Of a stretch of 64,000 nucleotides of DNA, positions 26,504 to 56,733 are shown piece after piece. Below the pieces are notes generated by a model. The model was not told the DNA's origin. It made no database searches and was given only the letters and a program-made list of their open reading frames with translations. The translations under genes and the position numbers were made by a program. How positions within the stretch are numbered: position 1 is the stretch's first letter; each line of letters starts with the position of its first letter. Origin of the DNA: Polaromonas sp. A23 (GTDB taxonomy: Bacteria > Pseudomonadota > Gammaproteobacteria > Burkholderiales > Burkholderiaceae_C); contig NZ_MUNO01000050.1 in NCBI RefSeq assembly GCF_002001015.1, forward strand, positions 62,001 through 126,000, written 5' to 3'.

Positions 26504-27280
26504 ATGACGGGTCGGGTTCTGCTGACCGTTGAGGGCTCAGTTGCAAAGGTCACCTTGTCTCATCCGGGCAAGCTCAATGCAATGTCACGCGCCATGTGGA
26601 GCCAGTTGCGCGACGTGTTTCTCGCGTTGCAGCAGCGCAGCGACGTGCGTTGCGTGCTGCTGCGCGGGGAAGGCGCGGCTTTTTGTGCAGGCGGTGATAT
26701 CTCCGAATACCCAAGCTTCCGTTTTGACGAGGCCGCCTTGCGCGGTTTCCACGAAGACGAGGTCTGGGGTGGCCTGCAGGCCATGCTCGATTGCGATGTT
26801 CCCATCGTGGCGCAGATCGAGGGTGCCTGCATGGGCGCGGGCATGGAGATAGCCAGTTGCTGCGACATGCGCCTGGCCGCCGTATCGGCAAAGTTTGGCG
26901 CTCCGATTGCGAAGCTCGGTTTTCCGATGGCCCCGCGTGAGGCGGCACTGGTGATACGCGCTGCCGGCGAGTTGACGGCCCGCGAAATGCTGCTGGCTGC
27001 GGCGGTGGTAGACGCGCCCACGATGCTTCAGCGCGGGTTTTTGAATCGTGTGTTGCCTGACGTTGAAGTGGCCAATGAGGCTGCGGCGATGGCTGAACGC
27101 GTGGCCGGGCTCGCGCAGGCCGCTGCACGTCTGAATAAGCAGTCATTTCGGGCATTGGCCCTTGAAGGACGGGCGCGAGTAGCTACTGATTTGATAGCGT
27201 CGGCCTATGCCTACGCGGATTCCGCCGAGCACCGCGAGGGTGTTGCAGCATTTGTTGAAAAGCGTTCGCCGCGCTTCTAG
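26504..27280 (+). CDS. Enoyl-CoA hydratase/isomerase family protein
   Basis: A 258-residue crotonase-fold protein. Visible motifs are HPGKLNAMSRAMW, the oxyanion-hole segment GEGAAFCAGGDISEY and the second one IEGACMGAGMEIASCCDMRLAA. The catalytic acids are not clear from sequence, so hydratase, isomerase or decarboxylase activity cannot be settled. Residues about 215-233 are encoded by a family-A repeat. The gene is in the malonate operon, so it may act on a malonyl-CoA-related thioester; that is inference. Confidence 0.88.
   Translation: MTGRVLLTVEGSVAKVTLSHPGKLNAMSRAMWSQLRDVFLALQQRSDVRCVLLRGEGAAFCAGGDISEYPSFRFDEAALRGFHEDEVWGGLQAMLDCDVPIVAQIEGACMGAGMEIASCCDMRLAAVSAKFGAPIAKLGFPMAPREAALVIRAAGELTAREMLLAAAVVDAPTMLQRGFLNRVLPDVEVANEAAAMAERVAGLAQAAARLNKQSFRALALEGRARVATDLIASAYAYADSAEHREGVAAFVEKRSPRF
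27146..27202 (-). repeat. Family-A repeat inside the enoyl-CoA hydratase gene
   Basis: Plus-strand TTGGCCCTTGAAGGACGGGC, then GCGAGTAGCTACTG, then TTTGATAGCG. It matches the other copies on the minus strand and stays in frame near the 3' end of the gene. Confidence 0.7.
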
Positions 27281-32195: not shown

Positions 32196-32381
32196 ATGTC
32201 AGAAGCCACCATGGGATTCAAGCGTACGCCGTGTCCGGATTGCAATGGCACGGGCGAACTGCGCATCGACAGCGAAAACATCAACGAGAATTTCGAGGTC
32301 GAAAAACAGACAGTCATCACTGAGTGCCCGCGCTGCCTGGGACTCACCTTTTTGCCGCCCGGCTCGCCTGAGCCGGCCTGA
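32196..32381 (+). CDS. Small protein with a CxxC zinc-ribbon-like pair
   Basis: A 61-residue soluble protein. CPDCNGTGE near residues 13-21 resembles a DnaJ-type CxxCxGxG zinc motif, and CPRCLGL near 44-50 could supply the second pair of ligands. No other domain is seen. GGAG lies seven bases before the ATG. Function unknown; a metal-binding role is inferred only from the four cysteines. It lies between aceA and the thrS leader. Confidence 0.7.
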   Translation: MSEATMGFKRTPCPDCNGTGELRIDSENINENFEVEKQTVITECPRCLGLTFLPPGSPEPA

Positions 32382-32449
32382 ACCCGAAGCTGCCGTAAAA
32401 TAGCGCCATGCAATCAATCAAGCTGGAAACAGGAAGGATCGCGCGGGTT

Positions 32450-32503
32450 ATGACACCGCGAACTACGACCACGCCTTCAGTTTGGAGTCATCTCGGGCGC
32501 TAG
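32450..32503 (+). CDS. Threonine-rich leader peptide of thrS
   Basis: A 17-codon frame encoding MTPRTTTTPSVWSHLGR then TAG. Codons 5-8 are ACT ACG ACC ACG, four Thr in a row, and codon 2 is also Thr. AGGAAGGA at 32431-32438 is a usable Shine-Dalgarno. An in-frame ATG at 32408 would make a 31-residue version. Position, composition and the following terminator are those of an attenuation leader that senses charged tRNA-Thr. It is too short for normal gene finding. Confidence 0.7.
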   Translation: MTPRTTTTPSVWSHLGR

Positions 32504-32565
32504 CCGCATCCCCAGGTGATTTGTAGCTACTGAATTAATAGCATACCTCCAGCCTAAACCCATTC

Positions 32566-32592
32566 AAAGCGCGGCAGTTACCGCGCTTTTTT
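32566..32592 (+). terminator. Intrinsic terminator (attenuator) upstream of thrS
   Basis: AAAGCGCGG and CCGCGCTTT form a 9-bp stem with loop CAGTTA, followed by a run of T. It would end transcription before thrS unless an alternative structure forms. Confidence 0.8.
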
Positions 32593-32612
32593 CATTTCCA
32601 GAGCCAAACATC

Positions 32613-34520
32613 ATGATCAAAATTACGCTGCCAGACGCCTCGATCCGTGAATTTCCCCAGCCTGTGACGGTGGCCGAGGTCGCTGCGTCCATTGGTGCCG
32701 GCTTGGCCAAGGCTGCGCTGGGCGGCAAGGTCAACGGCAAAGTGGTGGATACCAGCTACCTCATTTCAGTCGACAGCCCGCTTTCCATCATCACGGCCAA
32801 GGACCCGGAAGGCTTGGACATGATTCGCCACTCGACGGCTCACCTGCTGGCCTATGCGGTCAAAGAGCTGTTTCCGGATGCGCAGGTCACCATCGGCCCG
32901 GTCATCGAGAACGGCTTCTTCTACGATTTTTCCTACAAACGGCCATTTACGCCGGAAGACTTGGCTGCCATTGAAAAGAAGATGACCGAGCTGGCGGCCA
33001 AAGACGAACCGGTGACTCGCCGCGTGTTGCCGCGTGACGAGGCGGTGGCTCACTTCAAGGAAATCGGCGAGCACTACAAGGCCGAGATCATCGCCAGTAT
33101 TCCGGCCAATGAAGATGTGTCGCTGTACCGGGAGGGCAAGTTCGAAGACCTGTGCCGCGGCCCGCACGTGCCCAGCACCGGCAAGCTCAAATTCTTCAAG
33201 CTCATGAAGCTGGCTGGCGCCTACTGGCGCGGCGACCACAACAACGAGATGCTCCAGCGCGTGTACGGCACGGCTTGGGCCACAAAGGACGAGCTGCAGC
33301 AATACCTGACGATGCTTGAAGAGGCCGAAAAGCGCGACCACCGCAAGCTGGGCCGCGAGCTTGATCTGTTCCACATCGACGACCACGCGCCCGGACTGGT
33401 GTTCTGGCACCCCAAGGGCTGGACGGTGTGGCAGGGCGTCGAGCAGTACATGCGCAAGGTCTACCAGGACAACGGCTACCAGGAGGTCAAGGGACCGCAG
33501 GTGATCGACAAGACGCTGTGGGAAAAAACCGGGCACTGGGACAAGTACCGCGACAACATGTTCACGACGGAGTCGGAGAAGCGCGAATACGCGCTCAAAC
33601 CAATGAACTGCCCGGGCCATATCTTGATCTTCAAGCAGGGCATCAAAAGCTACCGCGATTTGCCGCTGCGTTACGGCGAGTTTGGTCAGTGCCACCGCAA
33701 CGAGCCCTCGGGCGGCCTGCACGGCATCATGCGCGTGCGTGGCTTCACCCAGGACGATGGCCATATCTTCTGCACCGAAGAGCAGATCCTCAAGGAATGC
33801 GTGGATTACACGACCCTGCTGCAGAAGGTCTACACCGACTTTGGCTTCAAGAACATCATCTACAAGGTCGCGACGCGGCCTGACGCGCGCATCGGTTCCG
33901 ACGAAAGCTGGGACAAGGCCGAACATGCGCTGATGGAAAGCTTGCGCGCTTCAGGTTGCGAGTTCGAAATCGCTCCCGGCGACGGCGCGTTCTATGGCCC
34001 GAAGATTGAATACACACTAAAGGACGCAATTGGCCGGCAGTGGCAGTGCGGCACCATGCAGGTCGATTTTTCGATGCCGGAGCGGCTCGACGCCGAATAC
34101 GTGGGCGAAGATGGCGCCCGGCATCGCCCCGTTATGCTGCACCGGGCCATTGTTGGCAGCCTGGAGCGTTTTATCGGAATTTTGATCGAGGAACATGCCG
34201 GCGCGCTGCCCACCTGGCTGGCGCCGGTACAGGTTTCGGTGCTCAATATCACCGATGCGCAGGCTGATTACTGTCGTGAAATAGCTAAAAGGCTTCAAAA
34301 TCAAGGGCTTAGGGTCAACCTGGACCTGCGCAACGAGAAAATTACGTATAAAATACGGGAGCACTCAATGCAAAAGCTGCCTTACATCCTGGTCGTGGGC
34401 GACAAGGAGAAGGAAGCCGGAGCGGTTGCGGTGCGGGCCCGGGGTAACAAAGACCTTGGCGTCATGTCACTCGAAGCCTTTGCCCAAACGATTGCTTCTG
34501 ACATTACCCAAAAAGCCTGA
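32613..34520 (+). CDS. thrS: Threonyl-tRNA synthetase
   Basis: A 635-residue class II aminoacyl-tRNA synthetase charging tRNA-Thr. In order: N-terminal TGS domain ([17 protein letters not shown]), editing domain with [16 protein letters not shown] and the [12 protein letters not shown] segment, catalytic core with [46 protein letters not shown] and the motif 3 region [20 protein letters not shown], then the anticodon-binding domain. It heads the translation cluster thrS-infC-rpmI-rplT-pheST-ihfA, and a Thr-codon leader suggests control by attenuation. Confidence 0.97.
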
Positions 34521-34616: not shown

Positions 34617-35225
34617 ATCGCTACTGAATTTCGTGACCGCCGTCACCGCGAAGAACGCAAGCACCGCTTGAACCGTGAAATCATGGCCCCCGAAGTACGA
34701 CTGACCGGGCCCGACAATGAGCCGCTGGGTGTTGTCACCACGATGGAAGCCTTGCGCCTTGCCGGTGAATATGACGTGGATCTGGTTGAAATCTCTCCCA
34801 CGGCGGTGCCGCCGGTGTGCAGATTGATGGATTACGGCAAATTCAAATACGCTGAGCAGAAGAAGGCCGCGGACGCGAAATCCAAGCAAAAAGTGATCGA
34901 GGTCAAGGAAATCAAGTTCCGGCCCGGTACCGATGATGGTGACTACAACATCAAATTGCGCAACATCAAGCGCTTTTTGGAAGAAGGCGACAAGTGCAAG
35001 ATTACCTTACGCTTTCGCGGTCGGGAGATCACGCACCAGGAACTGGGTCTGGCCCTGCTGGCGCGTATCCGCGACGAGTTGGCTGATTTGATTGTGGTGG
35101 AGCAGTTTCCCAAGCTCGAAGGCCGGCAGATGGTCATGATGATCGCGCCGGGCAAGAAGAAGGTGGCTGCCAAGCCCGCTGCGGCGCCTGCGGAGGCAGC
35201 GCCAGTGGCACCGACAAGCGCTTGA
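34617..35225 (+). CDS. infC: Translation initiation factor IF-3, with probable ATC start
   Basis: A 202-residue IF-3 that binds the 30S subunit and checks the start codon. Homology begins at [21 protein letters not shown], upstream of the first ATG (34668). The only in-frame candidate is ATC at 34617, with AAGGA nine bases upstream. Rare start codons in infC are a known device for autoregulation, since IF-3 rejects them. The N-domain runs to about residue 85, then linker and C-domain ([23 protein letters not shown]). The last 25 residues are an Ala/Pro/Lys extension. Confidence 0.93.
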
Positions 35226-35250
35226 GGCGGTTGTCGAAAAGTGAGTTCAG

Positions 35251-35280
35251 CCTGACGGTGTAGCCACCGGCAGGTTTTTC
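35251..35280 (+). terminator. Intrinsic-terminator-like hairpin after infC
   Basis: CCTGACGGTG and CACCGGCAGG pair with one mismatch around a TAGC loop, followed by TTTTT. It is the first of a run of hairpins before rpmI and may reduce read-through from infC. Confidence 0.6.
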
Positions 35281-35281
35281 A

Positions 35282-35419
35282 GGGATGCGAAAGCATTCCC
35301 GGAAAGCAGGTAAAACTGCTTTCCAAAGGTGGCGGCGTAAAAGTTGCCGCCAAGTGGCGAATTTAAAACTCGCCACTGACAAGTGGCTCGGGGCCATCAA
35401 GTCTGCGGAAGGTTCGCAG
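35282..35419 (+). ncRNA. Candidate structured leader RNA of rpmI-rplT (hairpin array)
   Basis: Consecutive stem-loops read off directly: GGGATGC/GCATTCCC with a GAAA loop (35282-35300), GGAAAGCAG/CTGCTTTCC (35301-35324), TGGCGGC/GCCGCCA (35330-35352), AGTGGCGA/TCGCCACT (35353-35377), TGGC/GCCA (35384-35396), CTGCG/CGCAG (35403-35419). The placement before rpmI and rplT fits a ribosomal-protein autoregulatory leader, such as L20 control in other bacteria. The regulatory role is inferred. Confidence 0.55.
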
Positions 35420-35453
35420 CGCCTCACGAGCACAAATGAAAAGGAGCATTTAA

Positions 35454-35657
35454 ATGCCCAAAATGAAGACCAAGAGCAGCGCGAAGAAACGTTTTCGCGT
35501 TCGTCCGGGTGGTACCGTCAAGCGCGGCCAAGCCTTCAAACGTCACATTCTGACCAAGAAGACCACCAAAAACAAACGCCATCTGCGTGGCGCAGTTGCT
35601 GTTCATGAGACCAATATGGGTCACATGGCACAGATGCTGCCCGGCATGGGCATTTAA
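35454..35657 (+). CDS. rpmI: 50S ribosomal protein L35
   Basis: A 67-residue basic ribosomal protein with the L35 pattern [20 protein letters not shown] and [33 protein letters not shown] precedes the ATG. It follows a 228-base structured spacer after infC and is 25 bases from rplT. Confidence 0.97.
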
Positions 35658-35682
35658 TTAACGACGAACAAGGAGTACTCAC

Positions 35683-36042
35683 ATGCCTCGCGTCAAACGT
35701 GGTGTAACGGCTCGCGCCCGCCACAAAAAAGTTTTAGCCCTTGCAAAAGGTTTCCGCGGCCGCCGCGGCAATGTCTATCGCATCGCCAAAGAAGCGGTGA
35801 TGAAGGCCGGGCAATATGCCTACCGTGACCGCCGTACCAAGAAGCGCGTGTTCCGTCAGCTCTGGATTGCGCGTATCAACGCCGCCAGCCGCTCATTCGG
35901 CATGACATACAGCCAGTTCGCCAACGGCCTGAAAAAAGCCGGCATCGAGATCGATCGCAAGGTCCTTTCCGACATGGCGATTCACGACAGCGCTGCTTTT
36001 GGCGCCATCGTGGAGCAGGTCAAGGCCAAGCTTGCTGCCTGA
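35683..36042 (+). CDS. rplT: 50S ribosomal protein L20
   Basis: A 119-residue L20, with the basic N-terminal helix [51 protein letters not shown] and [30 protein letters not shown]20 is an early 23S rRNA assembly protein and in other bacteria represses its own operon, so the structured region upstream of rpmI is a natural target. AAGGAG precedes the start. Confidence 0.97.
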
Positions 36043-36057
36043 TTTTTGAGGGGCGAT

Positions 36058-36113
36058 CAGCTATTGAATTGATAGCTGGTTGCGCACAAAAGACGAGGGC
36101 TGGAGCTTGAAAA
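36058..36113 (+). repeat. Family-A repeat between rplT and pheS
   Basis: CAGCTATTGAATTGATAGCT, then GGTTGCGCACAAAAGACG, then AGGGCTGGAGCTTGAAAAGG. The final segment also forms the 5' arm of the terminator at 36097-36134. Confidence 0.8.
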
Positions 36114-36134
36114 GGCTCTGGCCCTTTTTCTTTG
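36097..36134 (+). terminator. Intrinsic terminator between rplT and pheS
   Basis: GGGCTGGAGC pairs with GCTCTGGCCC through ten pairs (two G-T) around an 8-base loop, then TTTTTCTTT. No Phe-rich leader frame precedes it, so it is probably a plain terminator or partial attenuator built from the repeat. Confidence 0.75.
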
Positions 36135-36185
36135 TCCGCGCTGCAGGCGAGGTAGCCGGGCGGTTTGGCAATTTACAAGAAATTT

Positions 36186-37238
36186 ATGAACGAACTCGAT
36201 GCTCTCGTGGATGCGGCGACAACCAGTTTTGCCCAGGCTGTCACGCCAGCCGATCTGGAAAACGCCAAGGCGCAATTTCTCGGCAAGTCCGGCCGCATCA
36301 CGGAGCTGATGAAGGGCCTGGCAGCACTGCCTGTGGAAGAGAAAAAAACACGCGGTGCTGCCATCAACCTGGCCAAGCAGGGCGTTGAAGCTGCGCTGAC
36401 TGCACGCCGCCAGGCGCTGGCGGATGCAGAGTTGCAGGTGCAGCTCAAGGCCGAGGCGCTGGATGTTTCGCTGCCGGGCCGCCAGCGGCCGACCGGCGGC
36501 CTGCACCCGGTCTCCCTGACGCTGGAGCGCATCGAGGCCATCTTCGGCTCCATGGGCTTTGATGTGGCCGAAGGCCCGGAGATCGAAACCGACTGGTTCA
36601 ACTTCACCGCGCTGAACACGCCGGAAGACCACCCAGCCCGCTCCATGCACGACACCTTCTATGTTGAAGGCGGCACGGAAACCGCACCCAACCTGCTGCG
36701 CACGCACACCAGCCCGATGCAGATCCGTTACGCCGTTCAGCACGTCAAGAAGCACAAGGTGCTGATAACTGCCGGCGGCGTGATGCCCGAGATTCGTGTG
36801 ATCGCGCCGGGCCGTACCTACCGCGTGGACAGCGATGCCACGCACTCGCCGATGTTCCACCAGTGCGAAGGCCTGTGGGTAGGCCAGAACGTCAGTTTCA
36901 AGGACCTGAAAGTCGTGTTCACCGACTTCTGCCGTACCTTCTTCGAAAGTGACGATCTGGTGCTGCGCTTTCGCCCCAGCTTTTTCCCCTTCACCGAGCC
37001 GAGCGCTGAGATCGACATCCAGTTCCAGGCCGGTCCGCTGGCCGGCCGCTGGCTGGAGGTGGCCGGCTCTGGCCAGGTGCACCCGAACGTGGTGCGCAAC
37101 ATGGGTCTGGACCCCGAGCACTACATCGGTTTTGCCTTCGGCATGGGTCCGGACCGCTTGACCATGCTGCGGTACGACGTCAACGATTTGCGGCTGTTTT
37201 TTGACGGTGACCTGCGCTTTCTCTCGCAATTCCAGTAA
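36186..37238 (+). CDS. pheS: Phenylalanyl-tRNA synthetase alpha subunit
   Basis: A 350-residue catalytic subunit of the alpha2-beta2 enzyme charging tRNA-Phe. An N-terminal coiled-coil arm (about 1-90) is followed by the class II core with [28 protein letters not shown], motif 2 [26 protein letters not shown] and motif 3 [26 protein letters not shown]. The ATG at 36186 (MNELDALV) starts the conserved sequence; a TTG at 36165 would add seven residues. pheT follows 20 bases later. Confidence 0.96.
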
Positions 37239-37258
37239 TTCATTGGGACTGATTAAAA

Positions 37259-39685
37259 ATGCAATTTCCTGAATCCTGGTTGCGTGAATTCTGCAATCCA
37301 CCGCTGAGCACCGAACAGCTCGCTGAAACCCTGACGATGGCCGGACTGGAAGTGGAGGAGCTCAAACCGGTGGCTCCGCCTTTCAGCAAGATCGTGGTCG
37401 GAGAAATCCGCGAGGCGGTGCAGCATCCAGATGCCGACCGTCTGCGTGTCTGCCAGGTTGACGTGGGGCAGGGCGCCCTGCTCAACATCGTTTGCGGCGC
37501 GCCCAATGCGCGAGTCGGCATCAAGGTGCCATGCGCGCTGGTGGGCGCCGAGCTGCCTCCCGGTGAAGATGGCAAACCTTTCCTGATCAAGGTCGGCAAG
37601 CTTCGTGGTGTGGAAAGCCAGGGCATGTTGTGCTCGGCTCGCGAACTCAAGCTCTCCGAAGACCACGGCGGACTGCTTGAGCTGGCCTCGGATGCAGCGG
37701 TGGGCCAGGATATCCGTGAACACCTCAAGCTCGACGACACGCTGTTCACCCTCAAGCTCACGCCCAACCTGGCGCATTGCCTGAGCGTTTACGGTGTGGC
37801 GCGCGAAGTCGCTGCGCTCACGGGTGCACCGCTTCAAACGCCTGTCATCCCGGCCGTGGCCGCGACCGACGCCACGAAGTTGCCAGTCAAGATCAGCGCG
37901 CCCGATTTGTGCGGCCGCTTTTCGGGGCGTGTGGTGCGCAACGTCAATACAAAGGCCGTCACGCCGCAATGGATGGTGGATCGCCTGGCTCGCTGCGGCC
38001 AGCGCAGTGTTACCGCGCTGGTGGATATTTCGAACTATGTGATGTTCGAACTGGGTCGGCCCTCACACATCTTTGACCTCGACAAGATCCATGGCGGCCT
38101 CGACGTCCGCTGGGGCAAGCCCGGCGAGACGCTCAAGCTGCTCAACGGGAACACCGTCACAGTTGACGAAAAAGTTGGCGTCATTGCCGACAACGCGCAG
38201 GTTGAGTCGCTGGCAGGCATCATGGGTGGTGACGCGACGGCGGTGTCTGATGACACGAAGCACGTCTACGTCGAAGCTGCCTTCTGGTGGCCCAAGTCGA
38301 TTGCCGGACGCTCACGCCGCTACAACTTTTCCACCGATGCTGGCCACCGCTTCGAGCGCGGTGTAGATCCCGGCCAGACCGTGGAGCACATCGAACGTAT
38401 CACCCAGCTGATCATTGACATTTGCGGCACGCCGGAAACCGTGTGCGGCCCCATGGACGACCAGCAGGTCAATGTACCGAAAGCGGCACCCGTCACCTTG
38501 CGTGTGGCGCGTGCGGCAAAAGTGATCGGCATGCCGCTCACGCAGGCGCAATGCCTTGATGCCCTTCAGCGTCTCGGCCTGCCGGTGTCGCAAGGCGATG
38601 GCACGCTGACGGTGACCCCGCCAAGCTATCGCTTTGACCTGCAGATCGAGGAAGACCTGATCGAGGAAGTGGTGCGCATGGTGGGTTATCAGCAACTGCC
38701 CACCACACCGCCATTGGCGCCCATCACCTCGCGCATACGCCCCGAAGCCAGACGCAGTCCCTTTGCCGTGCGCCGCGCGCTGGCTGCGCTGGGCTACCAG
38801 GAAACCATCAATTTCAGTTTTGTCGAAGAACGCTGGGAGCACGAGCTCGCCGGTAACCCGAATCCCATCAAGCTGCTCAACCCGATTGCCAGCCAGATGA
38901 GCGTGATGCGCTCGTCCCTGCTCGGCTCGCTGTTGCAGGTGCTCAAGTTCAACCTGGACCGCAAGGCCGGCCGGGTCAATGTATTTGAACTCGGACGGGT
39001 TTTCTTGCGCGATGCACGCAGCCAGAACACTGACACCACCGTCGCCGGTTTTGACCAGCCCATGCGGGTGGCGGGTCTGGCTTATGGGCCGCGCGAGACT
39101 CTGCAGTGGGGTACCTCCGACAAGGGCGTCGATTTCTTCGACGTCAAGGGTGATGTGCAGGCTTTGCTGGCACCCTTGCAGCCGGTGTTTGCGCCGGCAA
39201 CCCATCCAGCCATGCATCCGGGACGCTGTGCCAGCGTGACCCTGAACGGTGTGGCGGTCGGCTTTGTGGGTGAGTTGCATCCGCAGTGGCGTCAGGGCTA
39301 CGAGCTGGCTCAGGCGCCCATTGTTTTCGAGCTGGCACTCGATGCCGTGCTGCAACGTCCCGTGCCCAGTTTCCAGCCGGTGAGCAAGCTCCAGCCCGTT
39401 GAGCGGGACATTGCAGTCATTGTTGCCGAAGCGGTGACGCATTCGGCGCTGATGGCAGCGATTGAGGGTGCCGACACGCGCGGCCTGCTCAAATCGGCCA
39501 CGCTGTTCGATATCTACCGTCCGCAACAGGCCAATGCCGCGATGCAGCTCGGCGAAAAAAGCCTGGCTGTGCGCTTGGTGCTTGGCAGCGACGAAGCTAC
39601 ACTGACCGACGAGCAAATTGAGGCGGCGATCAAGGCCGTGCTTGAGAATCTTGGTAGCGGCCTGCAGGCGCGTTTGCGTGCCTGA
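37259..39685 (+). CDS. pheT: Phenylalanyl-tRNA synthetase beta subunit
   Basis: An 808-residue subunit for tRNA binding and editing, normal length for bacteria. Visible domains are B1 (MQFPESWLREFCNPPL), the OB-fold tRNA-binding domain about 40-150 with VGEIREAVQHPDADRLRVCQVDVG, B3/B4 editing region about 210-390, B5, a catalytic-like core, and the C-terminal ferredoxin-fold anticodon-binding domain (about 715-808, FQPVSKLQPVERDIAVIV). It is co-transcribed with pheS and followed by ihfA. Confidence 0.96.
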   Translation: MQFPESWLREFCNPPLSTEQLAETLTMAGLEVEELKPVAPPFSKIVVGEIREAVQHPDADRLRVCQVDVGQGALLNIVCGAPNARVGIKVPCALVGAELPPGEDGKPFLIKVGKLRGVESQGMLCSARELKLSEDHGGLLELASDAAVGQDIREHLKLDDTLFTLKLTPNLAHCLSVYGVAREVAALTGAPLQTPVIPAVAATDATKLPVKISAPDLCGRFSGRVVRNVNTKAVTPQWMVDRLARCGQRSVTALVDISNYVMFELGRPSHIFDLDKIHGGLDVRWGKPGETLKLLNGNTVTVDEKVGVIADNAQVESLAGIMGGDATAVSDDTKHVYVEAAFWWPKSIAGRSRRYNFSTDAGHRFERGVDPGQTVEHIERITQLIIDICGTPETVCGPMDDQQVNVPKAAPVTLRVARAAKVIGMPLTQAQCLDALQRLGLPVSQGDGTLTVTPPSYRFDLQIEEDLIEEVVRMVGYQQLPTTPPLAPITSRIRPEARRSPFAVRRALAALGYQETINFSFVEERWEHELAGNPNPIKLLNPIASQMSVMRSSLLGSLLQVLKFNLDRKAGRVNVFELGRVFLRDARSQNTDTTVAGFDQPMRVAGLAYGPRETLQWGTSDKGVDFFDVKGDVQALLAPLQPVFAPATHPAMHPGRCASVTLNGVAVGFVGELHPQWRQGYELAQAPIVFELALDAVLQRPVPSFQPVSKLQPVERDIAVIVAEAVTHSALMAAIEGADTRGLLKSATLFDIYRPQQANAAMQLGEKSLAVRLVLGSDEATLTDEQIEAAIKAVLENLGSGLQARLRA

Positions 39686-55668: not shown

Positions 55669-56334
55669 ATGTTTAACGATATTGAGGCGGTGCTGTTTGA
55701 CCTTGACGGCACGTTGATTGACAGTGCCCCGGACTTGGGTGCTGCAGCTGACAAGATGCGCACCGACAGAGGCCTGATTTCCCTCCCGCTGGCCGAATAC
55801 AGGCCCATGGCTGGCGCTGGCGCCAGGGGCATGATAGGCGTGGCTTTTGGCTTCACGCCAGACCACGCTGACTATGGCGCCTTGAAAGAAGAGTTTTTCA
55901 CGAACTACGAGGCCTGTATGACCGAGCGGACATACGCCTTTGACGGTGTGGCCGAGTTGATCGCCCAAATAAACAGCGTCGGACTCAAATGGGGTGTCGT
56001 CACGAATAAATCGGAGCGCTTCACCTTGCCGCTGACCCGCCAGATGCCTTTGTTCGTTACGGCGCAAACCATTGTTAGTGGTGATACAACGCCTCATGCC
56101 AAACCGCACCCAGCCCCGCTTTTGGAGGCTGCCCGCCAACTCGGGCTTGTGCCGGGCCGTTGTGTCTACGTGGGAGACGACGAACGCGACATTGTTGCTG
56201 GCCGTGCAGCCGGCATGCCAACGGTGGCAGCTGCCTATGGCTATTTGGGAGCGCTGGCGGACACCGAGCGCTGGAACGCTGATGCCACCATTGTTTCTCC
56301 AGCTTCTCTCTTGAATTTTCTGCGAATGGCTTAA
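55669..56334 (+). CDS. gph: Phosphoglycolate phosphatase (HAD superfamily)
   Basis: A 221-residue HAD hydrolase. Motif I is LFDLDGTLIDSAPDL with the nucleophile Asp, motif II is VVTNKS, the motif III Lys is in HAKPHPAPLL and motif IV is YVGDDERDI. It probably removes phosphoglycolate formed in DNA repair, as in the common ubiG-gph pair. A role in ubiquinone synthesis is sometimes proposed for such neighbours but is not shown here. Confidence 0.9.
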   Translation: MFNDIEAVLFDLDGTLIDSAPDLGAAADKMRTDRGLISLPLAEYRPMAGAGARGMIGVAFGFTPDHADYGALKEEFFTNYEACMTERTYAFDGVAELIAQINSVGLKWGVVTNKSERFTLPLTRQMPLFVTAQTIVSGDTTPHAKPHPAPLLEAARQLGLVPGRCVYVGDDERDIVAGRAAGMPTVAAAYGYLGALADTERWNADATIVSPASLLNFLRMA

Positions 56335-56346
56335 ACTAGTCCGCTT

Positions 56347-56733
56347 GGGGCTGCATTGGTTTCGACGTGGGTTCGGACGCGGTGTGGTGCATGTCGAGCT
56401 GAGTGTGCTCGTAAAACTGATTCAAACAAACTAACTGCAAACGACGAACGTTTCGCACTCGCTGCTTAATTGCCAGTGAGCTTTACAACAGCAGGCCGAT
56501 GGGCTGGGCAAGGGGTTTTTAGCGCAAGTTAAACGCTCCCGGCTGTAAAGATAATTTCATCGGCTGGCTCCTGGCTGGGTACCTTAACCCGGGGCGAGAA
56601 AATAGGGTGCTGGCGTCCTGTGTAGCGTGCGACTGCGCGACACAGGTGGCGAGACCTAAATCAGACCGCTAAACATGTAGATCTGCCCGAACAAGGCTTG
56701 CGGACGGGGGTTCAAATCCCCCCAGCTCCACCA
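56347..56733 (+). ncRNA. ssrA: tmRNA (transfer-messenger RNA)
   Basis: A one-piece tmRNA that rescues stalled ribosomes. The 5' GGGGCTG pairs with the 3' CAGCTCC next to ACCA; the T-arm GGGGGTTCAAATCCCCCC is present near the end. The resume codon GCA at 56437 opens the tag A-NDERFALAA, ending in TAA at 56467-56469. This tag is typical of Burkholderiales. Several pseudoknot segments lie between tag and 3' end. Confidence 0.97.

Follow-up and report, generated by a model that had tools for sequence, protein, structure and literature searches.

We found that thrS, the threonyl-tRNA synthetase gene, is preceded by a short threonine-rich leader frame and a predicted intrinsic terminator, both in the window and in many of its relatives in the order Burkholderiales. 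The best explanation of this arrangement is ribosome-mediated transcription attenuation of thrS that senses threonyl-tRNA charging, a reading that we hold to be very probable. The window is the whole 64,000-nucleotide stretch of Polaromonas sp. A23 DNA analysed here. A preliminary description of it had proposed an attenuator at this site, and the proposal gained support from Thr-bearing leaders with terminators in at least 15 further families. The parts of the window locus are collected in Table 1.

Table 1. Features of the thrS leader locus in the window (window positions).
Feature	Position	Strand	Remark
−10 box TAAAAT	32396..32401	+	Putative leader promoter; 54 nt 5′ of leader ATG
Shine-Dalgarno AGGAAGGA	32431..32438	+	From sequence; 11 nt before leader ATG
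Leader peptide frame MTPRTTTTPSVWSHLGR, 17 codons	32450..32503	+	From translation; stop 32501-32503
Control codons 5-8, ACT ACG ACC ACG	within 32450..32503	+	
Segment 1 core CGCGAACTAC	32457..32466	+	Near-invariant DNA with rare codons CGA and ACT
Hairpin with leader stop codon in apical loop	32485..32522	+	Genus version of the 1:2 hairpin
Segment 2, candidate antiterminator strand	32497..32508	+	GCGCT 32497-32501 and AGCCGCA 32502-32508
Interspersed 21-nt repeat	32523..32543	+	Between segment 2 and terminator
Predicted intrinsic terminator (attenuator, segments 3:4)	32566..32592	+	AAAGCGCGG/CCGCGCTTT and T-run
thrS, threonyl-tRNA synthetase	32613..34520	+	Regulated gene in the proposal; TIGR00418
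infC, rpmI, rplT, pheS, pheT	34668..39685	+	3′ of thrS, same direction; NCBIfam matches

The leader frame and its threonine codons

The preliminary description had reported a 17-codon frame with four consecutive Thr codons and a fifth nearby, followed by a 9-bp terminator whose T-tract ends 20 bases before the thrS ATG. Sequence and translation agree with the first statement, and the coordinates agree with the second. Thr stands at codon 2 and, without interruption, at codons 5 to 8 of the frame. The terminator stem (32566-32589) has 9 pairs, 6 of them G-C, and a loop of 6; its T-run ends at 32592. The gene behind it was identified as thrS by TIGR00418 (735 bits versus a cut-off of 384). By eye, there was no good −35 element at the putative leader promoter. 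A longer leader start at ATG 32409 (31 codons) was set aside, as we saw no counterpart of it in relatives. The Shine-Dalgarno sequence was GAGAAAGG-like in most relatives read (by eye).

The window has 1891 short-frame starts (8-30 codons), and the leader alone has four Thr codons in a row; 20 dinucleotide shuffles of the window yielded one such frame in total. The window terminator taken alone was within chance (2 in the 1-kb region versus 1.0 expected), and the folding energy of the window leader was unremarkable (z −1.58; 14 of 200 shuffles as good). The case rests on conservation and not on the single sequence.

We collected 170 MTPRT-type leaders, of which 166 were distinct; 160 of the 166 frames were 10-20 codons long. 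From codon 6 to the stop, Thr made up 314 of 1466 codons in frame, compared to 104 ± 9 when the same bases were shuffled and to 13 and 57 of 1300 in the other two frames. Thr was the most enriched residue behind codon 5 (z 23), followed by Phe (11.8) and Glu (9.1). The excess was also present in 94 representatives (147 versus 55.5, z 14). It continued from codon 8 on, both in the full set (118/1134 versus 65.8) and in the representatives (59/655 versus 36.5, largest shuffle 56). Leaders carried between 2 and 7 Thr codons, most commonly 4. This enrichment across 166 leaders gives the short, putatively translated frames the richness in cognate codons that is expected of a ribosome-mediated attenuator. 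The preliminary description had made its reading depend on conservation of the Thr run. We observed that the core MTPRT (DNA TTATGACACCGCGAAC) is strict in relatives of the window, whereas the run behind the core varies.

Thr was near-universal at codon 2 (165 of 166 leaders) and codon 5 (all 166) because the search pattern demands Thr there. Codons 2-5 were near-invariant at synonymous sites too (ACA in 165, CCG in 165, CGA in 157 and ACT in 140 of 166), a constancy that is partly by construction because the leaders were found with that DNA. In seven window genes CGA accounts for 1.2% of Arg codons and ACT for 4.7% of Thr codons, so both are rare. These features would suit a different reading, in which the MTPRT start (ACA, CGA, ACT) acts as a short arrest or slow-start signal and responds to translation in general or to another amino acid, not to Thr-tRNA alone. 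It also fits that some leaders have few Thr codons beyond the core, with 19 of the 166 having only the two core ones. We consider this reading unlikely: besides the constructed part of the DNA constancy, Thr enrichment goes on behind the core, families without MTP keep RTTT-like runs, and the gene is thrS.

Distribution and losses of the leader

Within the family of the window, thrS was found in 199 of 200 genomes. We read the upstream DNA in 90 of these (the 30 nearest, 40 of the 41 that follow and the final 20 on the list), and the leader core was present by pattern upstream of thrS in 73. The preliminary description had suggested aligning the DNA upstream of thrS from relatives. In this comparison of sequences the peptide, the Thr enrichment, the −10 box and the terminator were conserved together in the window's family.

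A TATAAT-like hexamer (at least 5/6 matches, with A2 and T6 required) stood 15-75 nt before the leader ATG in 64 of the 73 family genomes, compared to 7.0 in shuffles (largest 15); 56 of these 64 hexamers stood 45-60 nt before the ATG. At a looser cut (4/6), which 30 of 73 shuffled stretches also passed, the best site lay 45-72 nt before the ATG in 71 of 73 genomes and 122 nt or more from the stem of the terminator. A predicted terminator-like hairpin, as expected of leader-peptide attenuators, was found in 163 of the 166 distinct leaders at a median of 34 nt (15-195) before thrS.

We also scanned named organisms for exact GTTATGACACCGCGAAC, which matched at least 118 stretches, 80 of which became loci. 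Among the matches listed, the core lay 114-306 nt upstream of thrS in 75 of the 80 loci. Three of the other five listed loci had the match near the locus end, and two were in records labelled Deltaproteobacteria and Melioribacteraceae. Listed carriers of the core included Variovorax, Acidovorax, Rhodoferax, Polaromonas, Comamonas, Roseateles, Rubrivivax, Burkholderia, Paraburkholderia, Cupriavidus, Massilia, Janthinobacterium, Duganella and Undibacterium.

Across the order, 125 of 399 genomes had a match to a loose pattern that allowed up to 3 mismatches, many of the 3-mismatch matches resembling those of the reversed control. The DNA upstream of thrS was read in 70 order genomes: the first of each family from 49 families (f7 excluded) and 21 chosen by the pattern. 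MTP[RL]T-type leaders were present in 25 of the 70, namely all 21 pattern-chosen genomes and 4 of the 49 first-of-family ones, and came from eight families (f3, f8, f10, f23, f32, f35, f39 and f47); one of the 25 was a diverged MRPPTT. Shorter relatives with an R-T core (MxxRT), such as MQLNRTTTTS, MFKRTTTTRISR and MAVRTTTTHP, were present in eight more of the 49 (f5, f6, f14, f24, f28, f39, f49 and f51) and add seven families beyond the MTP[RL]T-type ones. The first-of-family genomes therefore comprised 12 of 49 with a leader and 37 of 49 with none shown. Counting the window's family, the leader occurred in at least 16 of the 50 families sampled in the order, and its distribution was patchy.

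Deeper samples were read in several families, excluding loci with partial thrS (L336-L338); short frames were counted as read, without a chance control. Thr-rich leaders were present in 12 of 12 genomes in f5 (MFRTTTTTGK, MFRTRTTTQR, MTTTRTTTFFNLG and others; L346 by eye). A leader was present in 11 of 12 in f28, 6 of 6 in f51, 3 of 3 in f6, and 2 of 3 each in f14, f24 and f49; it was found in 0 of 2 genomes sampled in f13. Among 369 genomes across the class, the core pattern was found in three members of the window's family and at three one-mismatch places outside the order, compared to 9 for the reversed control. Because these one-mismatch matches are fewer than those of the reversed control, we claim nothing outside Burkholderiales; diverged leaders could escape the pattern.

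In order genomes that have both a leader and a tRNA-Val(GAC) gene, the leader lies between the tRNA gene and the terminator, and the attenuator may be derived from the terminator of the tRNA-Val gene. At one f22 locus (L147), neither the leader core nor tRNA-Val was found. As an observation in its own right, a terminator stands between tRNA-Val(GAC) and thrS in many order genomes, for example at L141, L142 and L153-L156.

The core was absent in 17 of the 90 family genomes. The preliminary description had expected peptide and hairpin to vary together. The −10 box, frame and terminator keep their order. Peptide and hairpin vary together only imperfectly: a CGCGG-type hairpin before thrS was kept in 14 of the 17 genomes that lack the core. 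Nine of these 14 loci (L014, L019, L022, L036, L055, L060, L062, L069 and L089) had a −10-like hexamer 10-34 nt from the hairpin stem, which would place transcript starts at the hairpin or immediately 5′ of it. We read this as a probable joint loss of the leader and of regulated termination, apparently on repeated occasions. The retained hairpin may serve another role, for example in mRNA stability. Two loci, L077 and L083, keep the hairpin without the peptide; their nearest −10-like sites are 116 and 80 nt away, respectively, and the model has no explanation for them. In this survey L030 and L056 were not clear-cut, and the thrS start was poorly defined at L021.

The kept hairpins bear on a second alternative, in which the hairpin merely terminates the upstream gene (tRNA-Val in many families), the frame is incidental and thrS is not attenuated. 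It agrees with two observations: in 47 of the 70 order genomes (37 of 49 families) tRNA-Val(GAC) precedes thrS on its strand by no more than 420 nt, and several order genomes carry the tRNA gene and a terminator before thrS but no leader. We regard it as decidedly improbable, since in the window the −10 box stands between the upstream frame, which ends at 32381, and the leader. Moreover, the T-run is just 20 nt from thrS there (15-195 in relatives, median 34), which leaves little room for a promoter 3′ of the window terminator, and a conserved frame shows in-frame enrichment of Thr.

That upstream frame (61 aa, 32196-32381, + strand) lies between an isocitrate lyase gene and the leader. It carries CPDCNGTG and CPRCLG motifs, presumably of a DnaJ-type zinc-finger kind, and had no NCBIfam match.

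RNA pairing and the ribosome-position model

We assessed two alignments with RNAalifold. The first, A1, held 48 Comamonadaceae-type leaders picked by eye from 69 with the segment-2 motif. In the predicted structure CGCG.AC pairs with GT.CGCG behind the stop codon, and the terminator forms as well. In the inner 1:2 helix, whose loop holds the stop codon, both partners had changed in 5 of the 6 pairs, the helix having been selected on the alignment used to score its covariation. Its bases pair in 76% of cells; in 13 of the 48 leaders one outer pair is disrupted. Over the whole structure there were 29 compensatory cells, compared to 14.6 ± 4.2 in shuffles. By eye, an extension of 1:2 past CGCGAAC gave no convincing covariation. 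Segment 2:3 pairs in 91% of cells and is invariant, without covariation.

The second alignment, A2, held 8 of the 12 f5 leaders, of MFRT type. Here the Thr codons CTACCC are predicted to pair with GGGTAG behind the stop, again together with the terminator. Segment 2 (GCCGTGC) pairs with the terminator arm GTGCGGC in 8 of 8 leaders (100% of cells), without covariation, and covariation in A2 did not exceed the shuffle control. These alignments speak for a 1:2 hairpin in two lineages but not in every one, with compensatory changes from one of the two.

Leader by leader, the signal was small. In 163 MTPRT leaders, pairing of the frame with the 38 nt after the stop was no stronger than in shuffles (median p 0.515, mean z 0.04); in 26 other leaders the mean z for pairing of the frame with downstream RNA was −1.0. 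Per-leader fold z-scores were weak (median −0.65), and the stop codon was in an apical loop in 67 of 163. Inner stems were barely longer than in shuffles (median rank 0.31, 72 leaders). The best segment-2 sites for segments 1 and 3 overlapped in 83% of leaders, compared to 59% in shuffles. We rejected direct 1:3 pairing in free RNA as a general device: families with another segment 1 lack the complementary CCGCG.

The preliminary description had named GCGCT with AGCGC (32568-32572) as the antiterminator pairing of the window. Both positions are right, but the pairing is only part of the candidate antiterminator; AGCCGCA pairs with the same 5′ arm of the terminator (−11.4 kcal/mol). In the window, the pairing of AGCCGCA with this arm was not significant (p 0.2 versus shuffles). 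Folds like that of the window hairpin occurred in L001, L002 and L237, where the duplex between frame and downstream RNA gave p 0.06, 0.15 and 0.03 versus shuffles.

We modelled the position of the ribosome by deleting all leader RNA 5′ of the front edge of a stalled ribosome, with an assumed footprint of 12 nt from the A-site codon and an assumed temperature of 30 °C. The mean probability that the terminator 5′ arm pairs upstream was 0.82 for a ribosome on codon 5, 0.66 for one on the stop codon and 0.78 with no ribosome; shuffled leaders gave 0.72, 0.65 and 0.76, respectively. The difference between codon 5 and stop beat the shuffles in 115 of 163 leaders, although such shuffle statistics overstate significance because the leaders are related and the test values are not independent. 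Over all leaders, the model favours antitermination at the Thr codons. For the window, the model predicted 0.53 for codon 5, 0.33-0.39 for codons 6-8, 0.08 for the stop and 0.77 for free RNA, and shuffles averaged 0.72 at codon 5, 0.62 at the stop and 0.77 free. Compared to these averages, the window has a larger contrast between codon 5 and stop but a weaker predicted antitermination. A strict 1:2 protector would not predict the ribosome-free value of 0.77 in the window.

Proposed mechanism and relation to known systems

We infer leader translation, ribosome stalling, antitermination and a dependence on charging in the following form. RNA polymerase would start 3′ of the −10 box, near 32408, and a ribosome would translate MTPRTTTT... 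during transcription. When Thr-tRNA is short, the ribosome would stall on the Thr codons and cover segment 1. Segment 2 would then be free to pair with the terminator 5′ arm, so that no terminator would form and thrS (perhaps also infC-rpmI-rplT-pheST) would be transcribed. When Thr-tRNA is plentiful, the ribosome would reach the stop codon, which lies in or beside segment 2, and would mask that segment. The terminator would then form, and transcription would end about 20 nt before thrS. Read-through from thrS may reach infC-rpmI-rplT-pheS-pheT, which would be co-transcribed with it.

A broader history is possible, and we offer it tentatively and with considerable doubt. An old Burkholderiales attenuator would have taken over the tRNA-Val terminator, and the near-invariant rare-codon start ACA CCG CGA ACT, besides encoding Thr, would pace the ribosome or arrest it early; the switch would thereby read Thr-tRNA together with a further translational state. 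In genomes that lost the frame, the promoter would have moved onto the hairpin.

Textbook control of thrS is by translational autoregulation in E. coli and by T-boxes in Firmicutes. In E. coli, ThrRS binds a tRNA-like operator and represses translation; the regulated gene is the same as here, whereas the device is a protein-bound operator there and a leader frame with a terminator in Burkholderiales. In the T-box thrS leaders of Firmicutes, the RNA binds tRNA directly without a ribosome. These share with the proposed attenuation the coupling of thrS transcription to tRNA-Thr charging, but need no ribosome. The E. coli thrLABC operon has a Thr-rich leader peptide and a terminator as well, but its leader also has Ile codons and controls biosynthesis genes. 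The E. coli pheST attenuator has the leader pheM. It is highly improbable that ThrRS here binds its own leader RNA and represses, as in E. coli, with the leader frame secondary: thrS autoregulation is established in E. coli and hairpins remain where the peptide is lost, but the terminator loop varies in sequence and length among leaders (by eye), and binding leaves the Thr-rich frames unexplained.

A passage of PMC2965389 mentions ThrRS solely as an autoregulator in E. coli. A section of PMC1262725 describes attenuators of pheST in gammaproteobacteria and of trpS and leuS in Streptomyces. Their plan is alike, with a cognate-codon leader peptide, an antiterminator (a candidate one in the thrS leader) and a terminator before the synthetase gene; amino acids, genes, lineages and sequences are different. 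Features of the thrS leader's own are the near-invariant MTPRT start and the place behind tRNA-Val in other families. The closest proposal is thrL-thrS of Streptomyces lividans TK24, for which an excerpt of PMC8079986 gives a leader peptide MKRVRPFLETTPGFVPAR with two Thr as a proposed attenuator, a leaderless thrL transcript and no clear terminator. It is alike in that thrS is preceded by a leader peptide carrying Thr codons. Unlike the Burkholderiales leader, it has two Thr codons, an unrelated sequence, another phylum and, in that excerpt, no comparative series.

We found no literature report of a thrS leader-peptide attenuator in Burkholderiales; the synthetase-attenuator survey of Lopatovskaya et al. 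2010, which appears as a citation in a passage of PMC4833913, may list one. With that reservation, the Burkholderiales thrS leader is new to the literature found, a thrS leader peptide as such having already been proposed in S. lividans. If attenuation is correct, one synthetase gene would be under different RNA mechanisms in different bacteria. The Burkholderiales leader brings the comparative series that is missing from the single Streptomyces proposal as excerpted. If read-through is shared, the genes for IF3, L35, L20 and PheRS would be tied to threonine charging. The leader would also be a natural reporter for Thr-tRNA charging in soil, freshwater and plant-associated bacteria.

Covariance models gave no known leader at the locus. 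Rfam Thr_leader, which we take to be RF00506, had no gathering-score match in the window or 9 relatives and none to E 10 in 32380-32640. T-box models had no match in the window, the 9 relatives or 32380-32640, and no thrS-leader family of Rfam was found in the window or the 9 relatives.

The 21-nt repeat (GTAGCTACTGAATTAATAGCA-like) has a second window copy at 27179-27199 and 113 copies (up to 3 mismatches) in its own genome, compared to 0 for the reversed control. By eye, an element resembling it stands directly 5′ of the terminator in several related leaders. Elsewhere in the window we observed a tmRNA at 56230-56733 (+ strand), overlapped by a permuted-tmRNA Rfam match barely over threshold (48.3 versus 47 bits).
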